Shown piece after piece: positions 24,926-44,211 of a stretch of 64,000 bases of DNA. The stretch covers positions 1 to 64,000 of the forward strand of contig CALGPN010000037.1 in assembly GCA_937960435.1 (NCBI GenBank), given 5' to 3'. Every line of letters begins with the position of its first letter. Position 1 is the first letter of the stretch. This stretch comes from an uncultured Desulfosoma sp. (GTDB taxonomy: Bacteria > Desulfobacterota > Syntrophobacteria > Syntrophobacterales > DSM-9756). Below the pieces are notes generated by a model. It did not search any database, had not been told where the DNA came from, and saw only the letters and a list, made by a program, of their open reading frames with translations. The position numbers and the translations under genes were made by a program.

Positions 24926-24951
24926 CGGGATTGGACAAGGAAAGAGCCCGT

Positions 24952-25566: not shown

Positions 25567-26161
25567 TCGATACGTTATGGTCTACAATGCGGATTTGTGC
25601 ATCGGATGCGGCGCGTGCAGCATCGAATGCCGCCGCTACTACGGTTTGGATGAAAAAGGGAGTTTCCGGGTGCGGATCGAAACCAAGGAAACCGGAACGT
25701 TTCCCGATGTGACCCTGGAGCATGTGCGGGTGTCCTGCGCCCATTGCGCCAACGCCGAATGCATCAAGGAATGCCCGACAGGGGCCACTTTCCGTGCCGA
25801 AGACGGCTTCGTGCTCATCACCCAGGAGCGATGCATCGGCTGCGGCGCCTGCGTCGACGCCTGTCCGTACGGGGCTCGCTACATGCGCCAAGTGGGTCAA
25901 ATGCTCAAGGCCGACAAATGTGCGTGGTGCTATGCGAGGGTCTATGAAGGGGGAAAACCGGTGTGCGTCGAAAAATGCATCACCGGGGCTCTTGTCTTCG
26001 GTCTTTCCTCGGATCCGGTCATCAAGGCGGCCTTGGAAGAACCCGGCACGGACGTCTATCACCCCGAATACAACACGAAACCTCAACTGTACCGCAAGAC
26101 CGTGCGACTGCGGCAAAAAGACGTCAAAGTGCTGGTCCGAATCCCGCAGCCCATGGCTTGA
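25547..26161 (+). CDS. Four-cluster ferredoxin subunit of the molybdoenzyme (PhsB/PsrB/DmsB-like)
   Basis: A 204-residue electron-transfer subunit carrying four [4Fe-4S] motifs in the DmsB arrangement: CIGCGACSIEC, CAHCANAECIKECP, CIGCGACVDACPYG and CAWCYARVYEGGKPVC. It would pass electrons to the catalytic subunit and be co-exported with it on the Tat signal. GGAGG lies upstream of the ATG inside the chaperone gene. No NrfD/PsrC membrane anchor follows; the next gene is on the opposite strand, so the quinol-oxidising partner is missing from this locus. Confidence 0.93.
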   Translation: MKDTTRDRYVMVYNADLCIGCGACSIECRRYYGLDEKGSFRVRIETKETGTFPDVTLEHVRVSCAHCANAECIKECPTGATFRAEDGFVLITQERCIGCGACVDACPYGARYMRQVGQMLKADKCAWCYARVYEGGKPVCVEKCITGALVFGLSSDPVIKAALEEPGTDVYHPEYNTKPQLYRKTVRLRQKDVKVLVRIPQPMA

Positions 26162-26220
26162 CGCCCGGCCCGCTTTTGGCAGCCGGTTGCGGTCCGCAGA
26201 CGTGGGAAGGCCTCGCGGCA

Positions 26221-27561
26221 TCACCCTTCCAAGGCGGCCGCCAGGACTTCCATGGGGTGGTACACGGGAAGGTCAAGGAGGTGCTGGAACTGAAGGCGGC
26301 AACTGAGGCAGTCCGTGACGACGGCTTCAGGAGCCGCTTTCCTTATTTTCTCTATAAGAGAAGCCCCCAGCTGCATGGAGGCATCGTAAAAATTCTTTTT
26401 GTAACCCAAACTTCCTCCCATGCCGCAACAGTCGGTGCTGCTCCCGATGAGTTCCAGCTGGAGGCCGGGAATCTTTCGAAGGATTTTAGCATAAGGGGTG
26501 CCGATTCCCTGCTCCCTTTGATGGCACGGAGCGTAATAGACCCATCGTCCTTTGAGGGGGCGAAGTGGGCCGGGAAATCCCCCTTCCGCGAGACGTCGGG
26601 CCAAATACTCGCCGGCATCAAAAACAGAGTCGGCAAGGCGGAGGCGTTCCGACGGGTCTAACGCCGAAAAGGCGTCATCAGCCAGGGAGCTGGCCCCGTA
26701 ATTCGGGGAAGAGGCTTCGCCGTGGCGTCCCGAGTCTGTGCATCCTGTGGCAAGACAAGCGTTTTCCTTGAGGATCCCTTTCATGAAATAACCGCATGTG
26801 GGACATGAACAAACAATGTCGAATCCCTCGCCGGCCAAACCTAGAAGCCTCTCCATATTGGCCCGAATGCGCCGAAGGCTTCGCGCCATATCGCCTTCCA
26901 CCACCGTGGGCATGCCGCAACACTCTTGCGGCGGCACATAAACGGCCAATCCAAACCGTTGGAAAACGGCCGTGACGGCACGGGCGACCTCCGGAAAGAG
27001 ATAAGCCGCCGTGCACCCGCTAAAATAGGCGATCCGCCGAGTGCCCGCTTGCGCCGGCGGTTTACGGTCCAGGCCGCGGCGGGCCGCCCAGGAAAAAAAA
27101 TTCTCGGCGGCAAGCGGCGGCAGTGTCCGCTGGGGATGCAACTCAAAGAACTTCTGAAAAAGCCGACGCACCACGGGAAGAGAAAAAAGAGCGTTAAGGG
27201 CTTTGGGCGCGATACGCCCAAGGCGTCCGAAGGTCTGGAGGTCGGACAGGACACGGGCGCCCGGCTTTATCCCTTCGTCTTGCACCCGCGCCGCTTTGGC
27301 CTGAATCACGTTCGCCCGCACATCGGGGCACGGACACAAGCCGCACAAGGTGCAACGGTCCGTCACGTCCCGAAGGGCATCGGCACGGAGCGACTGCTTT
27401 TTTGTCAGGGCCTCATCGTAGCGCCTATAAATTTCAGGAAAGACCAAACAGCTCTCATCCATGAGGAAGCGGCAGATGTCGCAGTCCGTGCATCCCTCGA
27501 AAAAACGCTGCAGGGGATCTTGAGCCGCCTGGGGATTCTTTTCGCGTTTGTCGGCATGCAT
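26221..27561 (-). CDS. CCG-domain (HdrB/GlpC-like) Fe-S oxidoreductase subunit
   Basis: A 446-residue protein with an N-terminal ferredoxin-like part (CTDCDICRFLM and CTLCGLCPCPD, a shortened second motif) and two C-terminal CCG domains with PPQECCGMP and SSTDCCGMGG. This plan is shared by GlpC, GlcF, LutA and HdrB-like proteins, which route electrons to the quinone pool or bind noncanonical clusters. The usual partner flavoprotein is not adjacent. Upstream in the same direction stand two tandem mini-protein genes 18 bases away, which may be partners. Specific substrate unknown. Confidence 0.87.
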   Translation of the reverse strand: MHADKREKNPQAAQDPLQRFFEGCTDCDICRFLMDESCLVFPEIYRRYDEALTKKQSLRADALRDVTDRCTLCGLCPCPDVRANVIQAKAARVQDEGIKPGARVLSDLQTFGRLGRIAPKALNALFSLPVVRRLFQKFFELHPQRTLPPLAAENFFSWAARRGLDRKPPAQAGTRRIAYFSGCTAAYLFPEVARAVTAVFQRFGLAVYVPPQECCGMPTVVEGDMARSLRRIRANMERLLGLAGEGFDIVCSCPTCGYFMKGILKENACLATGCTDSGRHGEASSPNYGASSLADDAFSALDPSERLRLADSVFDAGEYLARRLAEGGFPGPLRPLKGRWVYYAPCHQREQGIGTPYAKILRKIPGLQLELIGSSTDCCGMGGSLGYKKNFYDASMQLGASLIEKIRKAAPEAVVTDCLSCRLQFQHLLDLPVYHPMEVLAAALEG

Positions 27562-28014: not shown

Positions 28015-31000
28015 TCATCCCCAAATCTTTCCGAACCAGCGGCGCGTATCGTCCAGCAGGCTGTAGGTCACAGGAGTGATCACCAGGGTCATGACCGTTC
28101 CCACCAGCAGTCCCATACCGGCGGCGGTGGCCAGCGGCGACATGCGCTCCAGCCCCACGGCGGTTTCCAGGATCATGGGCAGCATCCCGACGAAGGTAGA
28201 CACGGTGGTCATGAGCACCGGGCGCAGCCTCAGCCGCACGGCCTCTTCCATGGCTTGGTCCCGCGTCATGCCCTGTTCGATTCCCTGGCGGATAAAATCG
28301 ATGAGAAAAATCGAGTTGTTGATCACAACCCCCGCCAGAAGCACCATGCCCATCATGGCCGGCATGCACATGGGCTTGGCGAAGAGAAGCAACCCCCAGA
28401 GAGATCCGATGACCGCCAAAGGAATCGCCACGAGGATGGGAAACGGTAAAAGAAAAGATCGGAAGGTCCCCATGAGGAGCACCACGAGCAGGACAAGGCC
28501 CAGCATGAGCGCTCCCATAATCCTTTGCATGCTCTCCTGCATGTCGGCGGCCGTGCCGCTCATTTTGATCCGCACACCTCCGGGCAACTCCGTCCGGGCC
28601 AGAACATCTTGAAGACGCGAAAGGACATGGCTCATGGGCCGTCCCACGTTATAGGCCGTGATGTCGATGGTATTTTCCAAATCCTCCCGCGTGATGAGCG
28701 TCTGGGTGGTCTCCTGCGTCACCTCTGCCAAAGTTCGCAAAGGCACGGCCCCTTGGGCCGTGGGAATAGGGAGACTTTCCAGCTTTTTGGGGCTGTCCAC
28801 CCAGACGTCGTCGTAAGCCACACGGATGGGCACATCGAGAAAGCCGTGAAGGCGGAGCCCCGAAACGGGCACGCCGCCCACGGCCGTTCGAAGCACCCGC
28901 GCCGTCTCGCCCGGCGTGGTCCCATAGAGGCGGGCCGTTCGCGAATCCACGGCCACTCTCACCTCCTCCTTGTCCATCCACCAGCCCGGAACGACGTCGG
29001 ACAGCCCCGAAATGCCCTTCATTCCCTCCATGATGTCCGCTGCCGTGTCCCAGAGAGCTTCACGGCTGTGGCCTCCCATGATGACAAGATCAATGGGCGC
29101 GCGAGCCGTACTCATGACCGTTGCGCCGTATTCATAGATCTGCAGAGACCGAATACCTGGAATTTCCTGAATTTTTCTCCGCCACGCATTCTGAATCTCC
29201 CAAATGGTTTTTTCCCTCTGATCGCGGGTCGTCAAGGTCACAATGATGGCAACCTTTTGAGCCGTTTGCGCACCGGCGCCAAAAGAAACCTGCCCCGGTT
29301 CGGACCCCACGGTGGAGGAGATCATCCGCACACTGGGTTCTTCCTGAACGATGCCTTCCACGACGCGGAGCACCTCTTCAACCCGGCCGACGGACGCCGA
29401 TGGCGGCATTTCGAACAAAATGTTGACGAAGCCCGCGTCCATGGGGGGCATGAGATCACGGCCGATGAGGGGCGGGACAATACGCAGTGTGAGGAGGAGG
29501 GCCAACATGGCCGACCCTAGGGCGATCAGGCGGCGGCGCAGGGCCCGTCGAACAAGTCCTGTGTAGAAAGCTCCGAGTCTCTCCACACCGCGGTTAAAGG
29601 GAAGAGCCAGTCGCTCCAAGAGATTTCTCGAAGCCTTCCCCTCGGCGGAAGGATTTCCGATAAGCTTCAGAGCCACGGGAGGGACGACGAAAACAGCGAC
29701 AAGCAATGACCCGATCAGGGCGTAGCACAGGGTGAGGGTGAAACGCCGCATGACCTGCTGCACGTAGCCCCCCGCAAACATGATAGGAACCAGCATCACC
29801 ACGGTGGTGAGAAGCCCCGCCGTAATCGACAGAAGAATTTCCCCCACGGCGCCTTCCACGCACCGCACAGGATCGCCCGGGCACAACCGTTGGTGTCGAT
29901 GGATGTTTTCCACCACGACCACCGTCGCATCGACAACCATGCCGGTCGCGATGATCAACCCGGAGAGAGTGACCACATTGAGGGTGTGCCCTGTGAGACC
30001 AAGGAGGGCGAGGGCGAAGAGGAACGATAGAGGGATGCTTACCAGAGACACGGCGGAGGTTCGAAGATCCGCCAGGAACAAAAAGATGATGATCACCGTC
30101 AAGGCGATGGACATATAGAGGGAGGAGCGCATGCCGGCGGTGTTGCGTTCGATGAGCGGCTGCTGGTCGTTGGTGATCTCGAATTCGACCTGCGGCCACT
30201 GTTTCTTCATCAGGGGAAGAGCCGCTTTGACGGCGCGGATGGCCGCCATGACGTTACCGCCTTCGGCCCGAAGCACGTTGATGCCTATGGCGGGCTTGCC
30301 GTTTCCGTGATAGAGGCTGCGGAGGTCTTCAATGCCTAATTCGACGCGGGCCACGTCCTTGAGGCGCACATAGGCATCCCGGGTCTGTTTGACGACCACG
30401 TTTTCCACATCCATCACATCCCGAAATTCCCCCACGGTTTTCACGAGCCGTTCCGAGCGAGAATCCTGCATAAATCCTGCTGGCACGGTGATGTTGTACT
30501 CCTGAACGGCCGTCATGACGTCCCTGGGCGTCACGCCGTAGGCTTCCAGACGGTCTCGATCCAGCCGGATGTTCACCTGAAGCTGGTGCCCGCCGAAGGT
30601 GTCCACATCGGCCACATGGGGAAGACGGAGCAAGGCGTCTTTGATGTCGTTGTCCGCGAGCAGACGCACCTCGCCCAAGCTCAGTCCCGACTCTGGCTTG
30701 GGACGCACGGCAAGGGTAATGACGGGACGCGTGGCGTCCGTGATGCGGTAGATGCGGGGTTCCAGAATATCTTCGGGCAAGTCGGCCCGAATGCGGCTTA
30801 GGGCGTTTTGAATGTCGGTGACGGCTTCCCCGATGGGTTTTTCATAACCGAACTGGGCGTTAATGGATGCCACCTCATCCCGAGACGTGGAGGAGAGTTT
30901 GGTCAACCCGGAAAGGCTCGAGAGCTCCTTTTCCACCACCTCCGTGATGCGCCGGTTGATGTCCACGGCCGCCGCGCCGGGCTGCACGATGATGACGGCC

Positions 31001-31134
31001 GCCTGCGGCGGGTTCGTATCGGGAAAATATTCCACGGGCATGGTGAAGAAAGCCCTCAGGCCCATCACAGCGACGATCAAGCCGCCAACCAGGACGGCCC
31101 AAGGGTTTCGCAACGCCCAGCCGTGCGGACTCAT
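28015..31134 (-). CDS. RND-family inner-membrane efflux pump (AcrB/HAE-like)
   Basis: A 1039-residue proton-driven efflux pump with the duplicated RND plan: an N-terminal helix, a large periplasmic loop, a helix bundle around 335-480, then the repeat. Helix 4 reads GMVVDATVVVVEN, with one of the two Asp residues of AcrB. Helix 10 reads VVINNSIFLID, with Asn where AcrB has the proton-relay Lys. These changes occur in several HAE-type subfamilies and suggest a modified relay. The start overlaps the adaptor stop by four bases. With the adaptor and TolC it forms a tripartite pump; substrate unknown. Confidence 0.93.
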   Translation of the reverse strand: MSPHGWALRNPWAVLVGGLIVAVMGLRAFFTMPVEYFPDTNPPQAAVIIVQPGAAAVDINRRITEVVEKELSSLSGLTKLSSTSRDEVASINAQFGYEKPIGEAVTDIQNALSRIRADLPEDILEPRIYRITDATRPVITLAVRPKPESGLSLGEVRLLADNDIKDALLRLPHVADVDTFGGHQLQVNIRLDRDRLEAYGVTPRDVMTAVQEYNITVPAGFMQDSRSERLVKTVGEFRDVMDVENVVVKQTRDAYVRLKDVARVELGIEDLRSLYHGNGKPAIGINVLRAEGGNVMAAIRAVKAALPLMKKQWPQVEFEITNDQQPLIERNTAGMRSSLYMSIALTVIIIFLFLADLRTSAVSLVSIPLSFLFALALLGLTGHTLNVVTLSGLIIATGMVVDATVVVVENIHRHQRLCPGDPVRCVEGAVGEILLSITAGLLTTVVMLVPIMFAGGYVQQVMRRFTLTLCYALIGSLLVAVFVVPPVALKLIGNPSAEGKASRNLLERLALPFNRGVERLGAFYTGLVRRALRRRLIALGSAMLALLLTLRIVPPLIGRDLMPPMDAGFVNILFEMPPSASVGRVEEVLRVVEGIVQEEPSVRMISSTVGSEPGQVSFGAGAQTAQKVAIIVTLTTRDQREKTIWEIQNAWRRKIQEIPGIRSLQIYEYGATVMSTARAPIDLVIMGGHSREALWDTAADIMEGMKGISGLSDVVPGWWMDKEEVRVAVDSRTARLYGTTPGETARVLRTAVGGVPVSGLRLHGFLDVPIRVAYDDVWVDSPKKLESLPIPTAQGAVPLRTLAEVTQETTQTLITREDLENTIDITAYNVGRPMSHVLSRLQDVLARTELPGGVRIKMSGTAADMQESMQRIMGALMLGLVLLVVLLMGTFRSFLLPFPILVAIPLAVIGSLWGLLLFAKPMCMPAMMGMVLLAGVVINNSIFLIDFIRQGIEQGMTRDQAMEEAVRLRLRPVLMTTVSTFVGMLPMILETAVGLERMSPLATAAGMGLLVGTVMTLVITPVTYSLLDDTRRWFGKIWG

Positions 31135-32339
31135 GAGCGCCCCTCCGTTTTCACCAAGAGGCCCTCATGACGGCGGACCCACTGCAAGTATTCACCCACG
31201 GCAGTCTGCTCCCCAGGGCGAATCTCCCCTCGCACCAGGGCCCTGTGCTCCGCAACTAAGCCAACTTCCACAGGAACCTTCACCAAGCGCCCGTCGCGAA
31301 CCGCATACACCGAGAAGGTCCCATCGGCTCCCGGGACCAGAGCCTGCCTGGAAACGCTCAACCCCTCCCCTTCCCGAACCACCGCCTCTACGGCTACAAA
31401 GGATCCGGGGCGAAGCGGGGCGTCGCACGTCCATGGAAACTCTGATTCCACGCGTACCGATTTGAAGGCTTCCATGGCCGGAAAGATGCGGGTGATGGCT
31501 ATCTCCTTCGGCAGGCCGGTGTATTCTTCAGGCCAATGGACACGAAGGCTTTGGCCGGGGCGCAAAACCATGAGGTCTTCTTGAACGGCATCCACGGCAA
31601 GCTTAGCGGCGGAGCAGTCCATTATTTCGAGCACCGGGACGCCGGGTTTGGCCAAATCCCCCGGATCCACCAGGCGACGGGTCACCACGCCGCGGAAAGG
31701 GGCTTCAATCCGCGTGTAGGAAAGCCGGGTTTCGGCTTCTTTGAGCTGAGCTTTGGCGGCGTCCACCTCCCGTTTGGCGCTGCGCCCCTCCGCGGCCAAG
31801 GATTCCCAACGGCCCAGGGCCGACGTCAAGCGATTGCGCGAGGCGTCCAACGCCGAGGCGCTGATCCCCTTTTTCTCAAAAAGAGCCCGATCCCTATCGA
31901 ATTCCTGCCGATAATATTCCACGTCCTTCCGAGCGGCTGCTTCCGAAGCGGCGACGGCAGCGAGCTTGGCTTGGAGGGCCTGAACCTTTGCTTTGAGGGT
32001 TTCCAGTTCCGCCCGTAGATCCCGATCGTCGAGAACAACCATGAGGTCTCCCTGGGCGACGGCGTCGCCTTCATTGACGAGAACGGCAACGACGTCTGCC
32101 GTCAGCCGAGGGGACACGGCGGCTTGCGCTGCCGCCTCAAGCCGCGCCAGATAGCGAAGGGTGTCAGCAAGTTTTTCATGGCGCACCGTATCGGTTTCCA
32201 TCGGCACCGGCCGCTCTTTCCACACGGGGGCCGACGCAAGCCGCTGTCGGGCGCGGTGCACCCCGATGACCAGCACGACCACAACGACGGCACACACCAG
32301 AACGACCCAAAACCTTGGACCCCATATTCGCTTTTCCAT
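31131..32339 (-). CDS. RND efflux periplasmic adaptor (membrane fusion protein)
   Basis: A 402-residue HlyD/AcrA-like adaptor. An N-terminal membrane helix (FWVVLVCAVVVVVLVIGV) is followed by a split lipoyl domain (VLVNEGDAVAQGDLMVVLDD and IEAPFRGVVTRRLVDPGDLAKPG), between them a long Ala/Lys/Glu-rich coiled-coil hairpin (about 105-205), then beta-barrel and membrane-proximal domains. It bridges the RND pump to TolC in the periplasm. It lies between the two partner genes with a four-base overlap to the pump, and about 130 bases separate it from the TolC gene. Confidence 0.92.
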   Translation of the reverse strand: MEKRIWGPRFWVVLVCAVVVVVLVIGVHRARQRLASAPVWKERPVPMETDTVRHEKLADTLRYLARLEAAAQAAVSPRLTADVVAVLVNEGDAVAQGDLMVVLDDRDLRAELETLKAKVQALQAKLAAVAASEAAARKDVEYYRQEFDRDRALFEKKGISASALDASRNRLTSALGRWESLAAEGRSAKREVDAAKAQLKEAETRLSYTRIEAPFRGVVTRRLVDPGDLAKPGVPVLEIMDCSAAKLAVDAVQEDLMVLRPGQSLRVHWPEEYTGLPKEIAITRIFPAMEAFKSVRVESEFPWTCDAPLRPGSFVAVEAVVREGEGLSVSRQALVPGADGTFSVYAVRDGRLVKVPVEVGLVAEHRALVRGEIRPGEQTAVGEYLQWVRRHEGLLVKTEGRS

Positions 32340-32469: not shown

Positions 32470-33855
32470 TCAGCGTAAACTTTCTGCCGGGTCCCGGCCG
32501 AGGGCCCGATCGCGCTCCATGAGCGCAATGTGCGCATCCACCACGGCCTGTGAGTACTCCACTTCCGCTTGAAGCAAGGCCGCCTGCGCATCCAGGACAT
32601 CGTTGATGCTGTTTTTCCCCGCCGCGTATTTCTCCCGCTCAATGCGAAGCGTTTCTTCCGCCACCGTCAAGGCCGAGCGCGTTACGTCCGTTCTTTCCAT
32701 GGCGTCGTTAAGGACCGTGAGCGCCCTTTCCACGTCTTTGCGAATTTCCAGCTCCACCGCCCGGAGTTGCTCCCGCGCCCGATGCTCGAGCAGCTTCGCC
32801 TGCTGGACGTTCGCCTGAACGGCACCGCCTCGAAACAGCGGCACATCCACCTGCATTCCCATAGCCCATGTGTCCTCGTGGGACAACCCAGCGGAAGGCT
32901 CGTCTGCATCGTAGGGGAGCCCATGACGCAGGCCGTAACGCCCAAAAGCGGAAACTTGAGGCCAATGATCGGCTCGGGCGGCCCGCACTGCCTGGGCCGC
33001 CGCCTGGGCCGCCGCCTGGGCCGCCTTTTTCTCCGGGCGCTTTTCCATAGCCTCGCGAAGCGCCTCGTCTTGGGACATCGGTGAAACCCTAGGCCTTTCC
33101 AGAGACCCGGAAACTTCAAAAGACGGCCGCCCCGCGACTTCCAAACCCATGAGCCGCCCGAGGAACACCAAGAGCACCTGGCGGTCGGCCCGAAGGGACG
33201 ACAGTTTTTGAGTGAGGCTTGAGACCCGCACGTTGATTTTCATGAGATCCACGGGCGCGGCCCTTCCCACATCCAACTGATCCTGCACCAGTTTTGCCTG
33301 AGCATCCAGGGCTTTCAGGGAGCCTTCCGTAGCGCGCACGACTTGGTCCGACTGAAGGATCTTATAGAAAACCGAGGCCGTGTTGAGGACGACGTCGTGG
33401 GTCGTCGCCGTGAGATCCCAAAGAGTGCGTTCCGCCCCGAGCTCCGCCGATCGGACGGCAGCTGCCCGACGTCCTCCCTCAAAAAGGAGGACCCGCCCGA
33501 TAAGCGCTGTATCCACCATATCTCGATCGAAGACGCCGGGGTCATTATTGGCATGCGCCGGCACGAGGCGTTGGGGTTCGCCGAAACGGGAGTAGGTCCA
33601 CTGCGCATCCAAAGACGGCCAGTACGCCGCCCGGGCTTTCGTCCTTTCCTGCTGTGCCGCCTCGAGGCCGTAGCGCTGCGCTCGAATCTCGGGATTTTTT
33701 TCCAGAGCTGTGGTGATGCAGTCTTTGAGCGTGAAGATGTCGGCGGCCGAGGCGGCGCCAACCGCTCCGATGGCAAGACTCCACAGAAGAGCGCATTTCG
33801 CAAGGGTCCGAAAAAGGGCCCACCAGCCTAAAGCTCCGAAGGAAAAAGTGCCCAT
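32470..33855 (-). CDS. TolC-family outer membrane efflux protein
   Basis: About 461 residues with a signal peptide (CALLWSLAIGAVGAASA) and two halves rich in long Ala/Leu/Glu/Arg helices, the TolC trimeric-channel fold. Each half begins with the typical LKDCITTALEKNPEIRAQ or EALREAMEKRPEKKAA pattern. It forms the outer-membrane exit duct for the RND pump encoded downstream. ATG at 33855 is favoured because GGGAG is nine bases away; the track ATG at 33864 touches it. An odd feature is a perfect threefold 12-base repeat coding AAQA. Confidence 0.92.
   Translation of the reverse strand: MGTFSFGALGWWALFRTLAKCALLWSLAIGAVGAASAADIFTLKDCITTALEKNPEIRAQRYGLEAAQQERTKARAAYWPSLDAQWTYSRFGEPQRLVPAHANNDPGVFDRDMVDTALIGRVLLFEGGRRAAAVRSAELGAERTLWDLTATTHDVVLNTASVFYKILQSDQVVRATEGSLKALDAQAKLVQDQLDVGRAAPVDLMKINVRVSSLTQKLSSLRADRQVLLVFLGRLMGLEVAGRPSFEVSGSLERPRVSPMSQDEALREAMEKRPEKKAAQAAAQAAAQAVRAARADHWPQVSAFGRYGLRHGLPYDADEPSAGLSHEDTWAMGMQVDVPLFRGGAVQANVQQAKLLEHRAREQLRAVELEIRKDVERALTVLNDAMERTDVTRSALTVAEETLRIEREKYAAGKNSINDVLDAQAALLQAEVEYSQAVVDAHIALMERDRALGRDPAESLR
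32990..33025. repeat. Three perfect 12-bp tandem repeats inside the TolC gene
   Basis: GCCTGGGCCGCC occurs three times without interruption and codes an AQAA-type helix repeat at the start of the second TolC half. The unit is a multiple of three, so copy-number change would keep the frame. Confidence 0.9.
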
Positions 33856-33953
33856 GTCCTGCATCTCCCTTTTCCGTCAGTGCCCTCACGCTCCGGGACA
33901 CGGCCTTTCGGAAACGTTCCCACGTTGCCGGGAAAAAGATGGAGCGCGGTACC

Positions 33954-34658
33954 TTAAGCTGGGATAAAGGGTCGGAGAATGAAATAAACGCCCAGAAGGC
34001 CCACGGCGACGCCGGCCGCTTTACGAAACCACAGGCTCCCCTGCTGAAACGTGCCGCTGGCCATGAGTCTCCTCACAAGGGCCGTAAAACTTCCCGCAAC
34101 GGCGATGGGCACGCAATGACCGATGCCGAAAAGAACAATGGAAACGACGCCAGTAAGGATTTTTTCCTGCACCGTGATGATCGCCAAAATAGGCGCAATG
34201 AAACCGAAGGTGCAGGTTCCGGAAAGGATCCCGTAGCCCAGTCCCAGCACCAGGGCACCCCGAAGGCCCCGGAGGCGAAGCTTCGCCAAACGCGTCCCCG
34301 AAAGGGAGCACACGGCGACGCCCATCATGTCCAGGGCCAACCACAGCAAAAGGACACCCACCACGATCGTCCAATAGGGGCTCACATCTCCCAACATCCG
34401 GCCCAGAAAGGAACAGACAATGCCAATGGCCGCAATGGTCAGAAAAAGTCCCAGCGTGAAAACCACAGCGTATCGGGCGGCTTCCCGGGGCGCCAAGATT
34501 CGCTGCTGGCCCGCCACATAGCTCACCACCAACGGGATGGACGCCATATGACAGGGACTCAACAGCACCGAAATCATACCCCAGAGGAAACACCCCGCCC
34601 AGGCCAGGCCCCCTTGGGTGCTCATCCACGTGTTGACCATCAAAAAAACATCCTGCAC
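33954..34658 (-). CDS. ccdA: CcdA-family thiol-disulfide transmembrane electron carrier
   Basis: About 234 residues with six hydrophobic helices. The two conserved redox cysteines sit in LLSPCHMAS near the start and SGTCTFGF after helix 4, the pattern of CcdA and the DsbD membrane domain. It moves reducing equivalents from cytoplasmic thioredoxin to periplasmic thiols. The neighbouring exported thioredoxin-like gene, 24 bases upstream, is the natural electron acceptor. GTG at 34658 preceded by GAGGAG is the likely start; GTG 34673 and ATG 34640 are alternatives. Confidence 0.88.
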   Translation of the reverse strand: MQDVFLMVNTWMSTQGGLAWAGCFLWGMISVLLSPCHMASIPLVVSYVAGQQRILAPREAARYAVVFTLGLFLTIAAIGIVCSFLGRMLGDVSPYWTIVVGVLLLWLALDMMGVAVCSLSGTRLAKLRLRGLRGALVLGLGYGILSGTCTFGFIAPILAIITVQEKILTGVVSIVLFGIGHCVPIAVAGSFTALVRRLMASGTFQQGSLWFRKAAGVAVGLLGVYFILRPFIPA

Positions 34659-34682
34659 GGTTCCTCTCCTCACCGATTGCGG

Positions 34683-35078
34683 TTACTGCACCCCCAACTT
34701 GGTCAAAACGTGCACGATGCTTTTTTTGTCCAAAAATCCTTCGTGCCGAAAAACCTCCCGGCCTTCTTTGTCGTAAAAGATCTGGGTCGGAATGACGCGG
34801 ATGCCGAACTTGGGCGCCGCCTGACGATCTTTCCACACATCGATAAAAATGATCGCCGCCCGGCCTTCATATTCCTTTTGCACTTCCTTCAAAACGGGTT
34901 CCATCATTTTGCAGGGAATGCACTCGTGGGCGCCCAAATCCACCATAGTGACCATGCCTTTGACGGGAATGTCCTGGACAGCTTCGCTCGCCCCGGCTGA
35001 ACCCGCCGTCAGAAGCCCCCACACCACAACCGACATCACCAGAACCATGACCGGAAAAACCAACGCGCGCCGATTCAT
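34683..35078 (-). CDS. Exported thioredoxin-fold protein (CcdA partner)
   Basis: A 131-residue protein with an N-terminal hydrophobic export or anchor segment (ALVFPVMVLVMSVVVWGLL) and a thioredoxin domain whose active site is HECIPCKMM, followed by RVIPTQIFYDKEG with the cis-Pro. It should act in the periplasm as a disulfide reductase fed by CcdA. The ATG overlaps the stop of the CDF-MauE gene (ATGA), and GAGGAC lies six bases upstream, so it is translationally coupled to that fusion. Target proteins unknown. Confidence 0.87.
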   Translation of the reverse strand: MNRRALVFPVMVLVMSVVVWGLLTAGSAGASEAVQDIPVKGMVTMVDLGAHECIPCKMMEPVLKEVQKEYEGRAAIIFIDVWKDRQAAPKFGIRVIPTQIFYDKEGREVFRHEGFLDKKSIVHVLTKLGVQ

Positions 35079-36739
35079 TCTTGTGTCCTCACTGTTTCTT
35101 TGCCGCAAAGATCTGCATCCTTCCCCATCCGCGTTTTGTGCCTCTTCATGATGCGCCAAGTCGTCACGGCCGAAATGATAAATAGCACGGCATCCCGGGC
35201 GACGCTCACCTTCATGGAACTCATCCCGGACGAGCCGCCCGAACCGAAACACCCACAGTCCACGTCCAAACCGCGGACCAGATTGAACACGACAGCCCCC
35301 AGAAAAACCCCCAGGAGCGCCGTCGCCAGGCTCAAGGCCCCCGGCAGCCAAAAACCCGCCACGAGGCATACCCCGACCAAAGCTTCCAGCCATGGAAGGA
35401 TCAAGGCCACGGCGTTCACCGCCCAGGAGGGGACAAGCTGGTAGTTGTCGACTGTCTGGGCGAAATCCAACGGCTGCAGGATCTTTTCATACGCGGCAAC
35501 CAAGAACACCAGGCCCAAAAGGAGACGCGCCGCCGTCAGTGCCCCCCGCTCCCATCGTTCGCCGACCTTTTGGACGCCCACCCGCGCCGGCGCCTCCCAT
35601 GCGTGCGCCTCATGAGCGGTATCTTCACCGGGCACCGCACAAACCTCACCTTGAGCGCCCCCGGGGCAAGACATTTCACACAACAGCGATCCATTGCCGC
35701 ACGATTGGGTCTCCAACTGGATGATAGGATGATCGATCCCAAAACGGCGATGAAGGACGTCGCCGGCGAGGCGCCTCACCTGTTCCACTTCGCTGAGCTT
35801 TTGGTCCGGGACCACCAGATGGCAGGAAAAAGCGATGCTCGAAGAGCTCACCTGCCAGGCGTGAAGGTAATGGGCGTTGACCACGCCCGGGAGAGCCTCG
35901 AGGGTCTCCTTGATCCTGGCGATCTCTACATGACGCGGAGCGGCATTCAGGAGCACCGCCACGGCTTCCTGAAGGACGGCCCAACAGTTTTTGAGGATGA
36001 AGGCGACGATGATCACGGAAAGCAGCGGATCAAGCCATGTCCACGGGCGAATCATGAGGACGGCGCCGGTAATGAGTACGGCCACGGAGGTGAGCACATC
36101 CCCGACCATGTGAAGGAACGCCCCGCGCACGTTGAGATTGCGGGCGGCGTCCGCATGCAACAGAAGCGCCGAAAGGCCGTTGCCCACCACGCCCACCGCC
36201 GCCAAGGCCATGACCCAACCGCCGGAGACGTCCCGAGGGTGTCGGAATCGCTCGAGGCCTTCGTAAAGGATCACCGAACAAGCGCCCGCAAGAATGAGGA
36301 CGTTGACCAGGGCGGCGAGGATTTCCACGCGACGGAATCCGAAGGTGTGGCGCGATGTCGCACCGCGACGCCCGATACGCCATGCGCCGTAGGCGATGAG
36401 AAGGGCTGCGAAATCGCTGAAATTATGGACGGCGTCCGAAAGAAGCGCCACGCTGTCGGCCAGGATGCCGCCCACGATTTGGGCGGCCGGAATGAGCAGG
36501 TTGAGCCCCATGGTGAAGAGCAGCCGTCCTCCGGACACCTCTTCCGACGCCGGCCCATGAACATGGACGCCCGACTTGGAATGTCCGTGGGGTTCTTCGG
36601 TCATCGGGGTAAAAAGACGCTCACCGTGGCCAGATGACGAGGCGTGATTCTCGAGATCATCGTGGCCGTCATGATGCGGGGATTCCTCATCGTGGGCGTG
36701 CACGACCCCCTTAAGGTCCCGACGATTGTCACTTTCCAT
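35075..36739 (-). CDS. CDF zinc-type cation exporter fused to a MauE/DoxX-like redox domain
   Basis: A 554-residue fusion. Residues 1-62 are His-rich (HHDGHDD, HVHG). Residues 70-265 form a six-helix CDF domain with the metal-site pairs HNFSD (105-109) and HMVGD (210-214) typical of Zn2+ exporters such as ZitB/CzcD. A cytosolic C-terminal domain follows to about 345. A linker then carries four cysteines (347, 354, 358, 367). Residues 398-535 are a four-helix MauE/DoxX-like domain ending in DCGCFG. It is one uninterrupted reading frame. The downstream thioredoxin and CcdA genes suggest the MauE part is in a thiol-disulfide chain. ATG 36739 is preferred; GTG 36772 is possible. Confidence 0.87.
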   Translation of the reverse strand: MESDNRRDLKGVVHAHDEESPHHDGHDDLENHASSSGHGERLFTPMTEEPHGHSKSGVHVHGPASEEVSGGRLLFTMGLNLLIPAAQIVGGILADSVALLSDAVHNFSDFAALLIAYGAWRIGRRGATSRHTFGFRRVEILAALVNVLILAGACSVILYEGLERFRHPRDVSGGWVMALAAVGVVGNGLSALLLHADAARNLNVRGAFLHMVGDVLTSVAVLITGAVLMIRPWTWLDPLLSVIIVAFILKNCWAVLQEAVAVLLNAAPRHVEIARIKETLEALPGVVNAHYLHAWQVSSSSIAFSCHLVVPDQKLSEVEQVRRLAGDVLHRRFGIDHPIIQLETQSCGNGSLLCEMSCPGGAQGEVCAVPGEDTAHEAHAWEAPARVGVQKVGERWERGALTAARLLLGLVFLVAAYEKILQPLDFAQTVDNYQLVPSWAVNAVALILPWLEALVGVCLVAGFWLPGALSLATALLGVFLGAVVFNLVRGLDVDCGCFGSGGSSGMSSMKVSVARDAVLFIISAVTTWRIMKRHKTRMGKDADLCGKETVRTQE

Positions 36740-36821
36740 CGGGAAACAGCATCTCCTCTCTTCCAGGGGCACCCGAGCGGTCGGCGGATCGCGGTGAGGC
36801 CGCTTCCCGTGAAGTGGGATA

Positions 36822-37325
36822 TCACGGACCCGTGCTCGTGGGCAAATCGTGCTCCGTCCACACCGACCATCCGTTGGCCAGAACCATGACGTGGGTATAG
36901 CCCCGGGCGATCAAAGCCACAGCCAGTTCATAACTCAGATCACAGCCTTCACCGTCGCAGTAGGTCACGATAGGTGTCTCTTTGGGGATGTCCGCAAGGA
37001 CGACGGGGGCTCTTTCCTCAAAAGCACCCCACGGGAGATTCAAGGCCCCTTCAATGTGGCCCCGAGCGTAGGCCTCAGGGCTCCGCGCATCCAAGAAGAC
37101 AGCCTCTTTAGTGAAAAAAAGAATCTGAGCTTCCTCAAGAGGAATCTCGAGCCCCAGCACGCCTTCCGCCGTGGCGGGGGAAGCGGGCGACCCATCTCCA
37201 AGCCAAGGGAGACCGTCGGAACGAAGCCCGTTGGAAACCACTGACAGAACACAGGCCAACGCCACCAACGCTCCGCTCTGCCAGATGGCTTCCCGCCATG
37301 GATATGTCCCGCCCTTTCTTCGCAT
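36822..37325 (-). CDS. Membrane-anchored rhodanese-like protein
   Basis: A 167-residue protein. An N-terminal hydrophobic segment (SGALVALACVLSVVSNGL) anchors or exports a rhodanese domain with the substrate motif VFLDARSPEAYARGHIEGALNLP. The active-site loop reads TYCDGEGCDLS, so the catalytic Cys is present and a second Cys stands five residues on. Rhodaneses carry sulfane sulfur or transfer it to thiols. It lies between the ACR3 gene and the CDF-MauE gene on the same strand, so it is probably part of the metal/thiol operon. Confidence 0.87.
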   Translation of the reverse strand: MRRKGGTYPWREAIWQSGALVALACVLSVVSNGLRSDGLPWLGDGSPASPATAEGVLGLEIPLEEAQILFFTKEAVFLDARSPEAYARGHIEGALNLPWGAFEERAPVVLADIPKETPIVTYCDGEGCDLSYELAVALIARGYTHVMVLANGWSVWTEHDLPTSTGP

Positions 37326-37493: not shown

Positions 37494-38777
37494 TTAGCGA
37501 ATCTTGGCCTTCAATTCGCTCAGCTCCCGACGCATGGCTGCCACGTCCTCCATGAGGCCAGCGACAGCTTCATGGAGATTCATGCCCCGGAGCCAGTCCG
37601 CAAACCAGTGGCGGGTGGCGAGGCAGATTTTCACGAGCATGAGCATGACAGGCACTTCGATCAGAACCCCCACGACAGTAGCCAATGCAGCACCCGAAGA
37701 CAAGCCGAAGAGAAGGGTAGCCGTGGCGATGGCCACTTCAAAGTGATTGGACGCCCCGATCATTGCCGCAGGGGCCGCGTCTTCATAGTGGAGTTTTAAC
37801 AACTTGGCCAAGCCATAACCGAGCCAGAAAATCAGGTTCGTCTGAATAAAGAGCGGGATGGCGATCCAAAGAATCGTCAAAGGATTGCCGATGATGACGT
37901 CGCCTTTGAAGGAAAAGAGCAAGATTAGGGTGATGAGCAGCGCGATGATCGTCACGGGGGTGAGTACATGAAGGAATCTTTGCTGAAACCACTCGATTCC
38001 CTTGGATCGGATGATGAACTTTCTGGAAAAATAGCCTGCCACCAGGGGAAGTGCCACATAGATCCCAATGGAAAGGACCAGAGCCTGCCACGGCACGGGA
38101 AGCCGTCCCACCCCAAGCAGGAATCCGCCCAAAGGTCCATAGAGAAGAAGCATAGTCAAACTGTTGATGGCCACCATCACCAATGTCAGTCCATCGTTGC
38201 CGCGGGCAAGGTACCCCCACACCAACACCATGGCCGTGCATGGGGCGATTCCTAGAAGAATACAACCGGCCAGGTAGCTGCGCCACAGGGGCACTGCCAT
38301 CATTTTGACGCCGTTGTGGAGGACCACCGTGCCCACCCCGTGGGTTGCCCCTACCGGAAGGTTCAACCCTAAGGGCATCTTCACGTAATCCATGGCCTCC
38401 GGGCCGATAAATCTTTGAAAAATGTAACCTAAAAAGATTAACGCAAGAAAATACATGGTAAAAGGCTTGATCGCCCAGTTGATGAAAAGGGTGAGGCCCA
38501 CCGGCTTGAGGCTCTTTCCCGCCCTCACCACTTCACCAAAGTCGATCTTCACCATGATGGGATACATCATGAAGAAAAGACACACAGCGATGGGAATGGA
38601 GACCACCGGCGCCTCATTGACGGTGATGGCCAACCCATCCAAGTATCGGGCCACCTCCGGCGCGATCCGGCCGAGTATGATGCCGGCCGCGATACATAAG
38701 ATGACCCAAATGGAAAGGTATTTTTCGAAAAAGCTCAGCCCTCGACCTTCTTTTTGGATTGCCGCTTCCGCTGCCAT
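37494..38777 (-). CDS. acr3: ACR3-family arsenite exporter with an unusual loop insertion
   Basis: A 427-residue ten-helix secondary exporter of the BASS/ACR3 fold that extrudes arsenite. Diagnostic parts are [30 protein letters not shown] with the essential-type Cys at 180, and the [14 protein letters not shown] segment. GGGAGG precedes the ATG at 38777. Between FIGPEAMDY and YLAGCILLG there is an extra stretch of about 36 residues, with two His, that ordinary ACR3 proteins lack. A polar C-terminal tail ends in a short coiled coil. It is divergent from the ArsP-like permease with matching promoters. Confidence 0.92.
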
Positions 38778-38937
38778 GGTGTCCACCTCCCGCGTGTTCT
38801 GCCCTCTCAACGATACATTCTTTTTGGGCAATATTAATTGGCCTCCGCCCTATGGGGCGGCACGGCCGGTTGCAAAGTCCCTTGGGGGAGATCTCCTTGC
38901 TCCATCAAGAACAAGGTGATTTCCACATGGCCTCGTT

Positions 38938-39109: not shown

Positions 39110-40486
39110 ATGGCGCGGGTCAATGCGACTCACACGGATGTCGGTCTTGAAGAGACCCAGGCGGTTCAAGAAGAAGAAAGCCAGATTCAATGGGCGGAAA
39201 TCTGGAAACCTCTGAGCGTCCTCGTCGGCGCTTTTCTCATTTTCTTCTGGCTTCCCATAACAAACGAGCGATTCCGGGGCGCGGTCCTGGAATCCTTGGC
39301 CCTGGTCAAGTGGTACGCCCAGGAACACGTTCTCTTGTGTTTGGTTCCCGCCTTTTTTATCGCCGGGGCCATTTCCTGTTTCGTCTCCCAAGCGGCGGTC
39401 ATGAAATATCTCGGCGCCGGGGCAAAGAAACTGCTTGCCTACGGCGTCGCTTCGGTTTCCGGAAGTATTTTGGCCGTGTGCTCATGCACGGTGCTGCCGC
39501 TTTTTGCGGGCATTTGGAAGCGAGGGGCAGGCTTGGGGCCGGCCATCGCTTTTCTCTACTCGGGACCAGCCATCAACGTTTTGGCCATCGTGCTCACGGC
39601 GAGGATCCTCGGCCTTCCACTAGGGATTGCCCGGGCTGTGGGAGCCATATCCTTCAGCGTCATCATCGGCCTCATCATGCATCTCGTTTACCGAAAGGAA
39701 GAGCAAGCCAAGGCGGCGGCCGCCCTCCACATGCCGGCTCCAGAGGTGGAGCGGCCCCTATGGCAAAATGTCGTTTATTTTGCAAGCATGGTCGGCGTGC
39801 TCATCTTCGCCACCTGGGGAAAACCCTCATCGCCCGTAGGCTTCTGGAACGCGGTGTACTCCGTGAAATGGTATCTGTGCGGCGCCTTCGCCCTCTTTTT
39901 GGGGTACCTGCTCATCCAATGGTTCCGGGTCAAAGCAGTGAAAATTGTCCTTTCGGCGCTGATCGTGGCGGCTCTCGCCTTCCTTTTTCCTCACGAACCT
40001 CTGATCGCCTTTTCGGCGGGAATCATCCTCTTCACGGTTTGCCTCACAACGACGCGGGGCGAGACGGAAACCTGGTTTCTGGCCACGTGGGATTTCACCA
40101 AACAGATCACACCACTCCTTTTCGGCGGCGTCCTCGCAGCAGGGCTTCTGCTCGGCCGTCCCGACGGTGCCGAGGGCCTCATTCCATCCCGATGGGTGAG
40201 CGGCCTTGTGGGCGGCAATTCCCTGGGAGCCAATTTATTCGCCGCGGTCGTCGGGGCGTTCATGTACTTTGCCACCTTGACGGAAGTGCCCATTCTTCAG
40301 GGCCTCATCGGCGCCGGCATGGGCAAGGGGCCCGCTTTGGCTCTGCTTCTTGCGGGGCCGGCTCTCAGTCTTCCCAACATGCTGGTCATTCGAAGCGTTC
40401 TCGGCACAAAAAAAACCGTGGTGTTTGTCACTCTCGTCATCCTGATGTCCACAGCGGCGGGCATCCTCTTCGGCACCTTTTTCTAG
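39110..40486 (+). CDS. DUF318/ArsP-like permease
   Basis: A 458-residue membrane protein with around ten helices. The first half has VPAFFIAGAISCFVSQ and the family-defining CSCTVLPLFAGIWKRG; the second has the repeated YFATLTEVPILQGLIGAGMGKGPALALLLAGPALSLPN. This two-half permease family includes ArsP, which exports trivalent organoarsenicals such as methylarsenite, and other metal-linked permeases. AAGGAGG precedes the ATG. It is divergent from acr3 and shares an ArsR-like site, which favours an arsenical substrate; Cu or Zn efflux is an alternative. Confidence 0.85.
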   Translation: MARVNATHTDVGLEETQAVQEEESQIQWAEIWKPLSVLVGAFLIFFWLPITNERFRGAVLESLALVKWYAQEHVLLCLVPAFFIAGAISCFVSQAAVMKYLGAGAKKLLAYGVASVSGSILAVCSCTVLPLFAGIWKRGAGLGPAIAFLYSGPAINVLAIVLTARILGLPLGIARAVGAISFSVIIGLIMHLVYRKEEQAKAAAALHMPAPEVERPLWQNVVYFASMVGVLIFATWGKPSSPVGFWNAVYSVKWYLCGAFALFLGYLLIQWFRVKAVKIVLSALIVAALAFLFPHEPLIAFSAGIILFTVCLTTTRGETETWFLATWDFTKQITPLLFGGVLAAGLLLGRPDGAEGLIPSRWVSGLVGGNSLGANLFAAVVGAFMYFATLTEVPILQGLIGAGMGKGPALALLLAGPALSLPNMLVIRSVLGTKKTVVFVTLVILMSTAAGILFGTFF

Positions 40487-41202: not shown

Positions 41203-41625
41203 TCAGAGTTCAAGGGTTTCCACAAAGGTTTTGATTTCGTCGCGGACACGGCGGTAATGGCTCATGGCTTCTTCTTCAGTGGCGGCACCGGCGGCCAGAA
41301 CGGGCGGGTCATCGAAGGGGACATGCATCTTTTTTGTCGTCGCGGGGAAAAAAGGACAAGATTCCTGAGCATGACCGCACAGGGTGACCACGTAGTGATA
41401 GTCCTGGGCCGGAAGCTCGTCCACCGCTTTCGAACGTTGCCCGCTGATATCGATCCCCACTTCCGCCATGGCTTTCACCGCGCGGGGGTCAAGCCCCTTC
41501 GGGTCCACTCCCGCCGAAAAGGCTTCCAGCCGGTCTCCTTTAAGAGCTCTCGTCCACGCCTCCGCCATCTGGCTTCGGCAAGAATTGCCCGTGCACAAAA
41601 ACAGGATGCGTTTGCGTTCCGCCAC
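41203..41625 (-). CDS. arsC: Arsenate reductase, thioredoxin-coupled (low-molecular-weight phosphatase fold)
   Basis: A 140-residue enzyme reducing arsenate to arsenite. The P-loop CTGNSCR puts the nucleophile at Cys11 and Arg17 in the CX5R signature. Cys83 and Cys90 in TLCGHAQESC form the disulfide relay later reduced by thioredoxin, the Staphylococcus/Bacillus ArsC type. It is the last gene of the arsR-led operon, which also encodes two thioredoxin-fold proteins that could regenerate it; the arsenite formed would leave through ACR3. Confidence 0.95.
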   Translation of the reverse strand: MAERKRILFLCTGNSCRSQMAEAWTRALKGDRLEAFSAGVDPKGLDPRAVKAMAEVGIDISGQRSKAVDELPAQDYHYVVTLCGHAQESCPFFPATTKKMHVPFDDPPVLAAGAATEEEAMSHYRRVRDEIKTFVETLEL

Positions 41626-41654: not shown

Positions 41655-42179
41655 TCAGCCATTGAGGTCGAACGGTTCGAGATAGGCCTGAAGCGCTTGG
41701 AGCTGCTCGGGGCTCAGATGCGGGCAGTGTTCCGGGCCGCGGCCGCCTTCGGCCACCTGTACGGCAAAGACGGTGCATGTGGGATAGCCGCAGTCTTTGC
41801 AATTGGTTTTGGGCAAGTGTTTGAGGATCGCAAACACTTGGGGCTTTTTCATCGGTTCGTATTTTGGCGTGATTTCGTTGCGCTTTTCCCAGATGCTGTT
41901 GATTTCATCCCGAAGCCACTGGAGGATCTTGTCCGCTTCCTCGGGTTCCTTCAAAGCGTTGATGGCGATTTCCCGCGGGTGCACCGTGATGAGCTTACCG
42001 TGCACCTTGAAAGTCACTGACATCGGCTCCCGCGTGAATTGGGATCCCCCGAGCACCGCATTGAGGTACGGAATGACCTCCCCCACGTCTTGATCCAAGT
42101 GGGCGATGCAATGGAGCGATTGAAAGCTCGGATTGCATTCCGGTCGGAAAATTTCTTTTCGATAGCTCCGGAGCAACAT
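41655..42179 (-). CDS. ars-operon Fe-S-binding protein
   Basis: A 174-residue protein. The first 110 residues have no family I can name. The end carries LPKTNCKDCGYPTCTVFA and a later HCPHL, the four-cysteine [4Fe-4S] domain found in corrinoid/acetyl-CoA pathway proteins and RnfB. AAAGGAGG precedes the ATG at 42179. It lies between the DGC-domain gene and arsC in the ars operon. A redox or sensing role in arsenic handling is only an inference; proteins like this may be typical of anaerobes. Confidence 0.78.
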   Translation of the reverse strand: MLLRSYRKEIFRPECNPSFQSLHCIAHLDQDVGEVIPYLNAVLGGSQFTREPMSVTFKVHGKLITVHPREIAINALKEPEEADKILQWLRDEINSIWEKRNEITPKYEPMKKPQVFAILKHLPKTNCKDCGYPTCTVFAVQVAEGGRGPEHCPHLSPEQLQALQAYLEPFDLNG

Positions 42180-42305
42180 AAGGCACCTCCTTTGTTTCGG
42201 GTACCTTCCGGGTTTGGCGGCGCCCTGGAAATTCTGCGACGGCCTCGCCTCCGGGCGCCGTCTCGAGCAAATATTGTTCGCCCAAATCAAAAGAGAATGG
42301 CCGTA

Positions 42306-42731
42306 TCAACCGCAGCAGACCATCCCGGAAGAGGCCTCCGTGGGAAGGTCCTTGCACGCTTCCTTCACGGCCGCCTTCACTTTTTCGATGGTTTCCCGTT
42401 CCAACTGAAAATTCTTGTTCTTTTCAATCCCCAGATCCGTCAAAACAACGTAGGCCTTCAGCGGCGCCTGGATGTGCTCCAAAATGGCCTTGGCACACCC
42501 GACGTTGCAGCCGTCGATGGCCACCATGGCCGGCGTGTCTTGGGCGGATCGGACAAATCCCGACAGATGGGCGCCGATCCCCGCCAGACAAAACATCTTT
42601 CCAAAACCCTCCACCGTGAGTTCCACTGCCGCCTGGTTTGACAATTGGCCCACGTTGGACCCGCCCGAGCAGGCGAGAATCATCACGTTGCCTTGGGGAG
42701 AAGCCCCCGTTTCACAACATTGTTCGGCCAT
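42306..42731 (-). CDS. DGC-domain putative zinc-binding protein
   Basis: A 141-residue Cys-rich protein with ACSGGSNVGQLSNQAA near the N-terminus and VAIDGCNVGCAKAIL in the middle, the DGC motif of the putative metal-binding DGC family, plus a C-terminal MVCCG and N-terminal QCCE. GGAGGAG precedes the ATG at 42731. Ten or more residues could ligate metal. Members of this family commonly occur with small thioredoxin-like proteins, as here (24 bases downstream of one), so the two may work together in metal or arsenic binding. Confidence 0.8.
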   Translation of the reverse strand: MAEQCCETGASPQGNVMILACSGGSNVGQLSNQAAVELTVEGFGKMFCLAGIGAHLSGFVRSAQDTPAMVAIDGCNVGCAKAILEHIQAPLKAYVVLTDLGIEKNKNFQLERETIEKVKAAVKEACKDLPTEASSGMVCCG

Positions 42732-42755
42732 TGGCACTCCTCCGTTCGACGAAGC

Positions 42756-42995
42756 TTACGACGCTGCCTTGATCCATGCAACGACTTCTTCCTTCTTGGG
42801 AATCTTCCCCACGGATTTCACTTCGCCGTTAATAACCACAGCCGGTGTGCCGAAAACCCCATAGCTTGCAATGTCCATGGCATCCGTCACATGGTCTACG
42901 GAAACCTGCAATCCGACTTCAGCCAGGGCTTCCTTCACCACCGCTTCCGTTTGATGGCACTTCTTGCATCCCGGTCCCAGCACTTTGATGTCCAT
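42756..42995 (-). CDS. Small redox-active disulfide protein (MTH895-like thioredoxin fold)
   Basis: A 79-residue glutaredoxin-sized protein. The active site is GPGCKKCHQTE at 8-18, followed by the cis-Pro loop FGTPAVVING and KIPKKEEV. This group of minimal thioredoxins is widespread in anaerobes and archaea. AGGAGG lies before the ATG, across a run of T. It sits in the ars operon and may reduce ArsC or the metal-binding protein next to it. The 205-base gap upstream contains a 6-bp GGGCTC/GAGCCC hairpin at 43168-43186. Confidence 0.88.
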   Translation of the reverse strand: MDIKVLGPGCKKCHQTEAVVKEALAEVGLQVSVDHVTDAMDIASYGVFGTPAVVINGEVKSVGKIPKKEEVVAWIKAAS

Positions 42996-43200: not shown

Positions 43201-43713
43201 TTATGGATGGGGCGATGCGGTTTTGAGCGCCTGAACCAAGCGTTTTTTCAATTCCGAGCGAGGCGGAACGCGCCCGGAAAAAAGCACCTGCCGCCCGACC
43301 ATCAACGCGGGCACCCCGAGAATTCCCAGCTGGCCGATGGCCATGGGATCGCGCACATGATCCACACTGACCGAAATCTTTTCTTCATTGAGAATATCCA
43401 TCACGAGACGTTCCAGTGCGTCGCACTGCGCGCAGCCCGGCCCGACCACGAGAACCGACATGGGATCCGGCGGTTCGTCTTCCGTGACAGATTCCCCGAC
43501 AAACCGCTGCCATTCCCGATATAACGCCTTCGCGTAATCGCCTCGCGCGCCTGAAGGAATGTAGTTGTCCGCCGCGAGACGCTGCAACAAAGCCTCTTTG
43601 ATCTCCTCGGGGGACTGACCCCAGAGGGATGATGCCGCCTCCTGAAGGGCCTCGTCAAGACCCACCACGCCCACCGTTTGTTTGCCGATACGCACCTGAC
43701 GGACTGACTTCAT
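43201..43713 (-). CDS. Two-domain protein with C-terminal thioredoxin fold
   Basis: A 170-residue protein. The first 85 residues, including YIPSGARGDYAKALYREWQRF, form a small helical domain I cannot name. The rest is a thioredoxin-like domain with VVGPGCAQCDALE and GVPALMVGRQVLF, closely similar in plan to the neighbouring 79-residue protein. ATG at 43713 overlaps the arsR stop (ATGA), so the two are coupled. It would be the first enzyme made after derepression. A role in thiol supply for arsenic detoxification is inferred. Confidence 0.82.
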   Translation of the reverse strand: MKSVRQVRIGKQTVGVVGLDEALQEAASSLWGQSPEEIKEALLQRLAADNYIPSGARGDYAKALYREWQRFVGESVTEDEPPDPMSVLVVGPGCAQCDALERLVMDILNEEKISVSVDHVRDPMAIGQLGILGVPALMVGRQVLFSGRVPPRSELKKRLVQALKTASPHP

Positions 43714-44072
43714 TCTATCCCTCTCGTCTGTCGAGCGCAAACCATGCCGCGATCCAATTCGGGAACCTTTCTCAGGACGGCCTGGATTTCGGGATCGTCA
43801 TTGAGCCAGTGTTTGAGGCTCCCGAGGAGCATGGCCGCATAGGGGCTGCTTTGCCCGTCCGCGGGCCGGTAGTTCACCCAGAGCCCGTCTTTGCGCTTTT
43901 CCACGAGACCTGCATCTTCGAGGATCTTGAGATGCTTGGATACGGTCGGCTGAGCCAGCCCGAGTCCCGCCTGGATCTCGCACACGCACAGTTCCCGGCG
44001 GTTGAGCATCTTGAGAATCTTCACCCGATTGGGATCGCACAGGGCTTTCATGACCCGAATAAATTCTTTCAT
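43710..44072 (-). CDS. arsR: ArsR-family metalloregulatory repressor
   Basis: A 120-residue winged-helix repressor. The metal-sensing loop RELCVCEIQ carries the CxC that binds As(III) or Sb(III) in ArsR, directly before the recognition helix (LGLAQPTVSKHLKILEDAGL). GGAGG precedes the ATG at 44072; the track ORF starts upstream of the promoter. It heads the operon ending in arsC. A perfect dyad overlapping its own -10 is the likely operator, giving autorepression released by arsenite. Confidence 0.94.
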   Translation of the reverse strand: MKEFIRVMKALCDPNRVKILKMLNRRELCVCEIQAGLGLAQPTVSKHLKILEDAGLVEKRKDGLWVNYRPADGQSSPYAAMLLGSLKHWLNDDPEIQAVLRKVPELDRGMVCARQTRGIE

Positions 44073-44093
44073 CGCGCCTCCTGTCATAGATCG

Positions 44094-44129
44094 CGATATG
44101 GTAATATATCGTTTCATAACGGCGGTCAA
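44094..44129 (-). promoter_or_regulatory. arsR promoter and operator dyad
   Basis: On the minus strand TTGACC and TATTAC are spaced by 17 bases. The perfect dyad CGATAT-N6-ATATCG at 44094-44111 covers the -10, an ideal place for repression. Its core TATATTACCATATC resembles the spacer and -10 sequence of the ArsP-like permease promoter at 39033-39046. Confidence 0.82.
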
Positions 44130-44211
44130 GTCCAAGCAGACCAAAGTGTCCGCCCCACTTCACGGTGCCGTCGGTGAAGACCTGTGCGTCCGCCCGAACA
44201 CCCCATCACCC

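Follow-up and report, generated by a model that had tools for sequence, protein, structure and literature searches.

A zinc-type CDF transporter fused to a MauE domain, encoded behind a rhodanese gene in an arsenic cluster of an uncultured Desulfosoma

The CDF family, the MauE family and ars clusters with CcdA and thioredoxin (Trx) are all known already. MauE is a maturation protein of methylamine dehydrogenase, and DoxX-SodA-SseA is a membrane oxidoreductase complex of mycobacteria. Zinc-type CDF exporters (ZitB/CzcD, along with ZnT1 and ZnT8, for which structures exist) have six helices, H/D sites in TM2 and TM5, a cytosolic dimer domain and a cysteine tail, and in ZnT8 the tail cysteines and the N-terminus bind zinc in the cytosol (PMC8000985). 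CcdA and thioredoxin were reported in 2010 as determinants of an ars operon (PMC2963123), and the mycobacterial membrane oxidoreductases DoxX and SseA, the latter a rhodanese, are named together in PMC11614215. In the open-access papers searched we found no report joining MauE and CDF, nor any of an arrangement rhodanese (Rhod)-CDF-MauE, and both the chain and the arrangement described below appear to be unreported there.

We analysed a window of DNA, i.e. the whole stretch of 64,000 nt from an uncultured Desulfosoma sp., a bacterium of sulfate-reducer type, for which a sequence-only reading had proposed one uninterrupted frame joining a CDF exporter to a redox domain. This frame is indeed unbroken, running on the minus strand from a GTG at 36772 to 35075 with an ATG at 36739 inside. 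The assembly that holds it (3.0 Mb, 95% complete) has one further CDF gene. The gene and its parts are as follows.

35075 to 36739, minus strand: CDF-MauE fusion gene, 554 aa from the ATG at 36739, alternative GTG at 36772, supported by homologues
36539 to 36739, minus strand: His-rich N-terminal tail, residues 1-67, predicted disordered (pLDDT under 50)
35951 to 36535, minus strand: CDF transmembrane domain, six helices, residues 69-263, with HNFSD at 105-109 and HMVGD at 210-214 (Pfam, alignment, model)
35702 to 35950, minus strand: CDF cytosolic dimerisation domain (ZT_dimer), residues 264-346 (Pfam, model)
35666 to 35701, minus strand: CDF cysteine tail CGxGxLLCExSC (Cys347, 354, 358), also in unfused CDFs
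35582 to 35665, minus strand: unconserved spacer, residues 359-386, with no conserved cysteine
35087 to 35581, minus strand: MauE four-helix domain, residues 387-551 (Pfam, model)
35243 to 35260, minus strand: DCGCFG redox motif, residues 494-499, with a predicted periplasmic position, on the loop from MauE helix 3 to helix 4

The CDF half belongs to the CDF transporter superfamily by TIGR01297 (263.9 bits, cut-off 82.35), and Pfam finds Cation_efflux PF01545 (139.8 bits, cut-off 26.6) and ZT_dimer (51.4 bits, over its cut-off). The HNFSD and HMVGD metal sites pointed out from the sequence are present and conserved, the zinc-type HxxxD pairs H105/D109 (TM2) and H210/D214 (TM5) being invariant across 24 fusions. 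An AlphaFold2 model of the fusion (mean pLDDT 77, pTM 0.51) contains the six CDF helices, the cytosolic domain and the four MauE helices, the third and fourth of which are joined by the loop carrying DCGCFG, and the CDF half matches the structures of ZnT1, ZnT3, ZnT8 and YiiP. Hence this half is like the described zinc-type exporters in helices, metal sites, dimer domain and cysteine tail. The fusion differs from them in its added C-terminal MauE and in staying below the cut-off of its nearest NCBIfam family, ZitB (equivalog NF002923, 211 bits against 408). From the motifs we infer a divalent cation as the cargo, and the protein is probably dimeric.

The C-terminal half had been described as MauE/DoxX-like, and of this double label the first part stands. 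MauE PF07291 scores 97.4 bits (cut-off 27) over residues 412-539 in GTG numbering, and the CGC of DCGCFG is invariant in 47/47 sequences, 26 of them fused and 21 solo MauE. We rejected the DoxX label, as PF07681 reaches 21.1 bits, slightly below its cut-off of 23.6. The likeness to MauE of methylamine dehydrogenase maturation thus lies in the Pfam score, the four helices and the CGC motif, whereas here the domain is fused to a transporter within an arsenic cluster. No mau genes occur among the identified neighbours (ars, Trx, CcdA, rhodanese, RND), so the context is not that of a mau operon.

A sequencing or assembly error that merges two genes is one rival explanation of such a chain, and a check of the reading frame against it had been proposed. 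The full-length fusion in one frame was found in 16 of 61 related genomes (this one included), with one additional genome where the fusion is read across a contig end. A sample of 395 genomes from across the phylum had it in 17, and the 292 genomes of a second order in 22. Counted from our tables, this amounts to about 42 distinct genomes, i.e. this one and about 40 others, of Desulfobacterota. As the same full-length frame recurs in these independent assemblies, including those of the type strains Desulfacinum infernum and D. hydrothermale, the fusion is not a sequencing error; nothing was found in favour of that explanation, and we give it practically no weight. A mobile plasmid gene was also considered and rejected, since among 919 plasmid records that matched the CDF none reached 80% query coverage. 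Other seemingly long fusions (L211-L213) owe their extra length to overlapping frames or split genes and carry no new domains.

The sequence-only reading also saw a four-cysteine linker between the halves, which could act as a redox or metal relay. In its favour, Cys347, 354 and 358 stand right before the spacer, and the alignment shows them conserved among the fusions (26/26, 26/26 and 23/26). The same cysteines are, however, found in unfused CDFs (20/23, 20/23 and 15/23), and the tail can be aligned to the human ZnT1 tail and resembles the zinc-binding cytosolic tail of ZnT8. By this comparison Cys347/354/358 sit in the CDF's own cytosolic tail and are not a feature of the linker, while the fourth, Cys367, is among the fusions private to the window sequence. 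The spacer proper lacks any conserved cysteine. In the AlphaFold2 model (a structure prediction of the linker had been suggested) it lies within a stretch, 350-386, that is disordered. Among close relatives dN/dS is about 0.06-0.16 in the CDF and MauE halves, i.e. purifying selection, and about 0.47-0.76 in the nearly unconstrained linker; it should be noted that some pairs are near saturation at synonymous sites. Selection thus keeps both halves, with the join serving as a spacer.

The side of the membrane points the same way. The C-tail is rich in K+R and the CGC loop is acidic, a positive-inside pattern that sets CGC outside, and from these charge counts and the model (pTM 0.51) the CGC loop is predicted to be periplasmic. 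As the cysteines are common to unfused CDFs and CGC is predicted across the membrane, the supposed linker would be part of the transporter on the face opposite to the redox motif. The comparison with unfused CDFs and the relaxed selection on the spacer led us to reject the linker as a relay, which we regard as very improbable.

The MauE/DoxX-like part might also be an assembly or stability partner of the exporter and not a redox enzyme. A fold search with the MauE model gave weak matches throughout, and the sole plausible one is indeed an assembly factor, NACHO/TMEM35A (prob 0.99, E 0.1, TM 0.45-0.57), but many CDFs function without MauE, the CGC is invariant in all 47 sequences and the neighbours are redox genes. 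We consider this explanation improbable. A sequence search found no solved MauE structure.

The neighbourhood of the fusion is an arsenic cluster, which along with the rhodanese upstream had gone unmentioned in the sequence-only reading. The genes are:

43710 to 44144, minus strand: ArsR-family regulator, cluster head (HTH_5, 73 bits)
43201 to 43740, minus strand: second Thioredoxin_3 protein
42756 to 42995, minus strand: Thioredoxin_3 small disulfide protein
42306 to 42737, minus strand: DGC-domain protein (PF08859, 118 bits)
41655 to 42290, minus strand: Fe-S protein (C-terminal PF04060 motif), recurrent in such ars clusters
41203 to 41625, minus strand: ArsC, thioredoxin-type arsenate reductase family (153 bits, below the equivalog cut-off of 174)
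39110 to 40486, plus strand (opposite strand): ArsP-family permease (PF03773, 226 bits)
37494 to 38831, minus strand: ACR3 arsenite efflux transporter (TIGR00832, 380.6 bits, over cut-off)
36822 to 37325, minus strand: rhodanese, encoded immediately upstream of the fusion; it has an N-terminal hydrophobic anchor, and its active loop reads YCDGxxC
34683 to 35078, minus strand: periplasmic-type thioredoxin with CIPC motif, ATGA overlap with the fusion
33954 to 34673, minus strand: CcdA (DsbD_TM) membrane electron carrier (44.7 bits)
32470 to 33864, minus strand: TolC-type outer membrane channel
31131 to 32339, minus strand: HlyD-type membrane fusion protein
28015 to 31134, minus strand: RND efflux pump (ACR_tran)

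The minus strand order is thus ArsR, Thioredoxin_3 (two genes), DGC, Fe-S, ArsC, ACR3, rhodanese, CDF-MauE, Trx, CcdA, TolC, HlyD and RND. An ArsR regulator, an arsenite exporter and an arsenate reductase together identify an ars cluster, ArsC being assigned at family level. We confirmed the thioredoxin and CcdA genes that had been noted downstream, with the fusion stop TGA (35077-35075) and the thioredoxin ATG (35078-35076) sharing ATGA. Compared with the operon of PMC2963123, the cluster shares ArsR, ArsC, ACR3 and ArsP along with CcdA, Trx and Thioredoxin_3 genes. Rhodanese, CDF and MauE are extra here, and that paper's text contains neither "rhodanese" nor "cation". The pairing of a DoxX/MauE-like membrane protein with a sulfurtransferase recalls DoxX and SseA. 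Here, in contrast to DoxX-SodA-SseA, no superoxide dismutase (SodA) is seen among the identified neighbours in the cluster, where MauE and rhodanese are adjacent, and the domain is MauE, under the DoxX cut-off. Near the cluster, 22493-27561 encodes a molybdopterin oxidoreductase nearest to PhsA thiosulfate reductase (394 bits, below the cut-off of 694), a DMSO-reductase-type chaperone, a ferredoxin subunit and a GlpC-like protein.

In 18 of 20 ars-type fused loci, those outside one sister family, a rhodanese lies directly upstream, and the same holds at 5/7 of the split CDF-MauE loci and 7/13 of those with a solo MauE. Of the 20 fused loci, 16 have ars genes within 8 kb and nine have CcdA. A few loci are cut by contig ends. 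Both active-loop cysteines of the rhodanese CDGxxC are invariant in 40/40 homologues, as are the CIPC/CVPC cysteines (CxPC) of the thioredoxin in 21/21. The anchored rhodanese at 36822-37325 often pairs with MauE even where no CDF is present, and the two look like a little-described sulfurtransferase/MauE pair.

In a tree of 49 CDF sequences the fused, split-adjacent and CDF-only forms are intermixed. Well-supported branches force at least six changes of the fused label, though long branches and contig ends make their exact number uncertain; a tree that unites all fusions in one clade is rejected (p-AU 2.75e-6). In two Desulfamplus genomes the CDF and MauE genes are in-frame with a stop between and a restart 3 bases later. 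CDF precedes MauE in every fused or directly adjacent case, one Nitrospirota MAG has the order Rhod-MauE-CDF, and both CDF-only clusters without MauE and Rhod-MauE pairs without CDF occur. One cluster of ACR3-Rhod-MauE-ArsP without CDF (L169:3008-7547) suggests that the Rhod-MauE pair is the older and gained the CDF later. As relatives carry CDF and MauE as split or adjacent genes, the fusion is not obligatory and the covalent link not essential.

This pattern raises the question whether adjacent operon genes have simply merged, so that the exporter exports, MauE keeps its usual rhodanese-linked job and the tether means co-production only. The intermixed forms with their repeated changes, the variable linker and the Rhod-MauE pairs without CDF are all in line with such a merger. 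Against it, the same pair was fused repeatedly in the same order, which suggests functional contact, and five sister-family genomes hold the fusion alone, without ars, Trx or rhodanese neighbours, with the key residues of both halves conserved. We regard a mere merger as unlikely, though it is the alternative to which we give most weight. ACR3 is absent from three of these five genomes, hence the role of the fusion is not arsenic-specific, and together with the isolated position of the gene this means that the fusion has a function of its own, not tied to arsenic. In the sister family (L039-L043) the fusion lies beside NAD synthetase-like and PII (GlnB-type) genes, as read from the sequence, a setting without ars neighbours that is kept across genera. 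A real coupling is favoured by the recurrence of the fusion and by its isolated copies in the sister family, while the recurrent splitting argues that this coupling is not essential.

The explanation we prefer, and hold to be somewhat more probable than all others together, is that the fusion sits in the inner membrane and has two parts, a CDF proton antiporter of zinc type (Zn/Cd/Co) and, C-terminal to it, MauE, and that the Rhod-CDF-MauE-Trx-CcdA module in an ArsR-type cluster would tie periplasmic thiol/sulfur redox to the export of a thiophilic cation. CcdA would hand cytosolic electrons to the periplasmic thioredoxin, which would keep the MauE CGC and/or the rhodanese cysteines reduced, while the CDF would export a thiophilic divalent cation, such as zinc that As(III) has driven off cysteine sites. 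Through the fusion, the redox domain would sit next to the point where the metal leaves, at a fixed 1:1 ratio. A link between metal export and periplasmic thiol chemistry, as first proposed, is thus a natural inference from a genuine fusion, zinc-type CDF sites, MauE and a periplasmic-redox neighbourhood; what falls away is the linker as the link between the halves.

Further, we speculate on another, rather improbable reading, a redox-coupled exporter in which the two-cysteine rhodanese and the MauE CGC, powered by electrons from CcdA and Trx, free sulfide or persulfide at the CDF exit. The exported cation, and nearby arsenite, would then be trapped as metal sulfide or thiolate and could not re-enter; alternatively, the redox state of MauE might gate the exporter.

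A fusion in itself hints at function, and this one, recurrent and with a rhodanese in front, ties the well-understood CDF family to the poorly understood MauE redox family and to the arsenic clusters of anaerobes, and offers a testable entry to the role of MauE/rhodanese pairs. That the pair is fused and split repeatedly in ars clusters suggests cooperation between metal export and thiol chemistry at the membrane's outer face, and the repeated joining suggests that these bacteria resist arsenic in part by exporting divalent metals and controlling periplasmic thiols.
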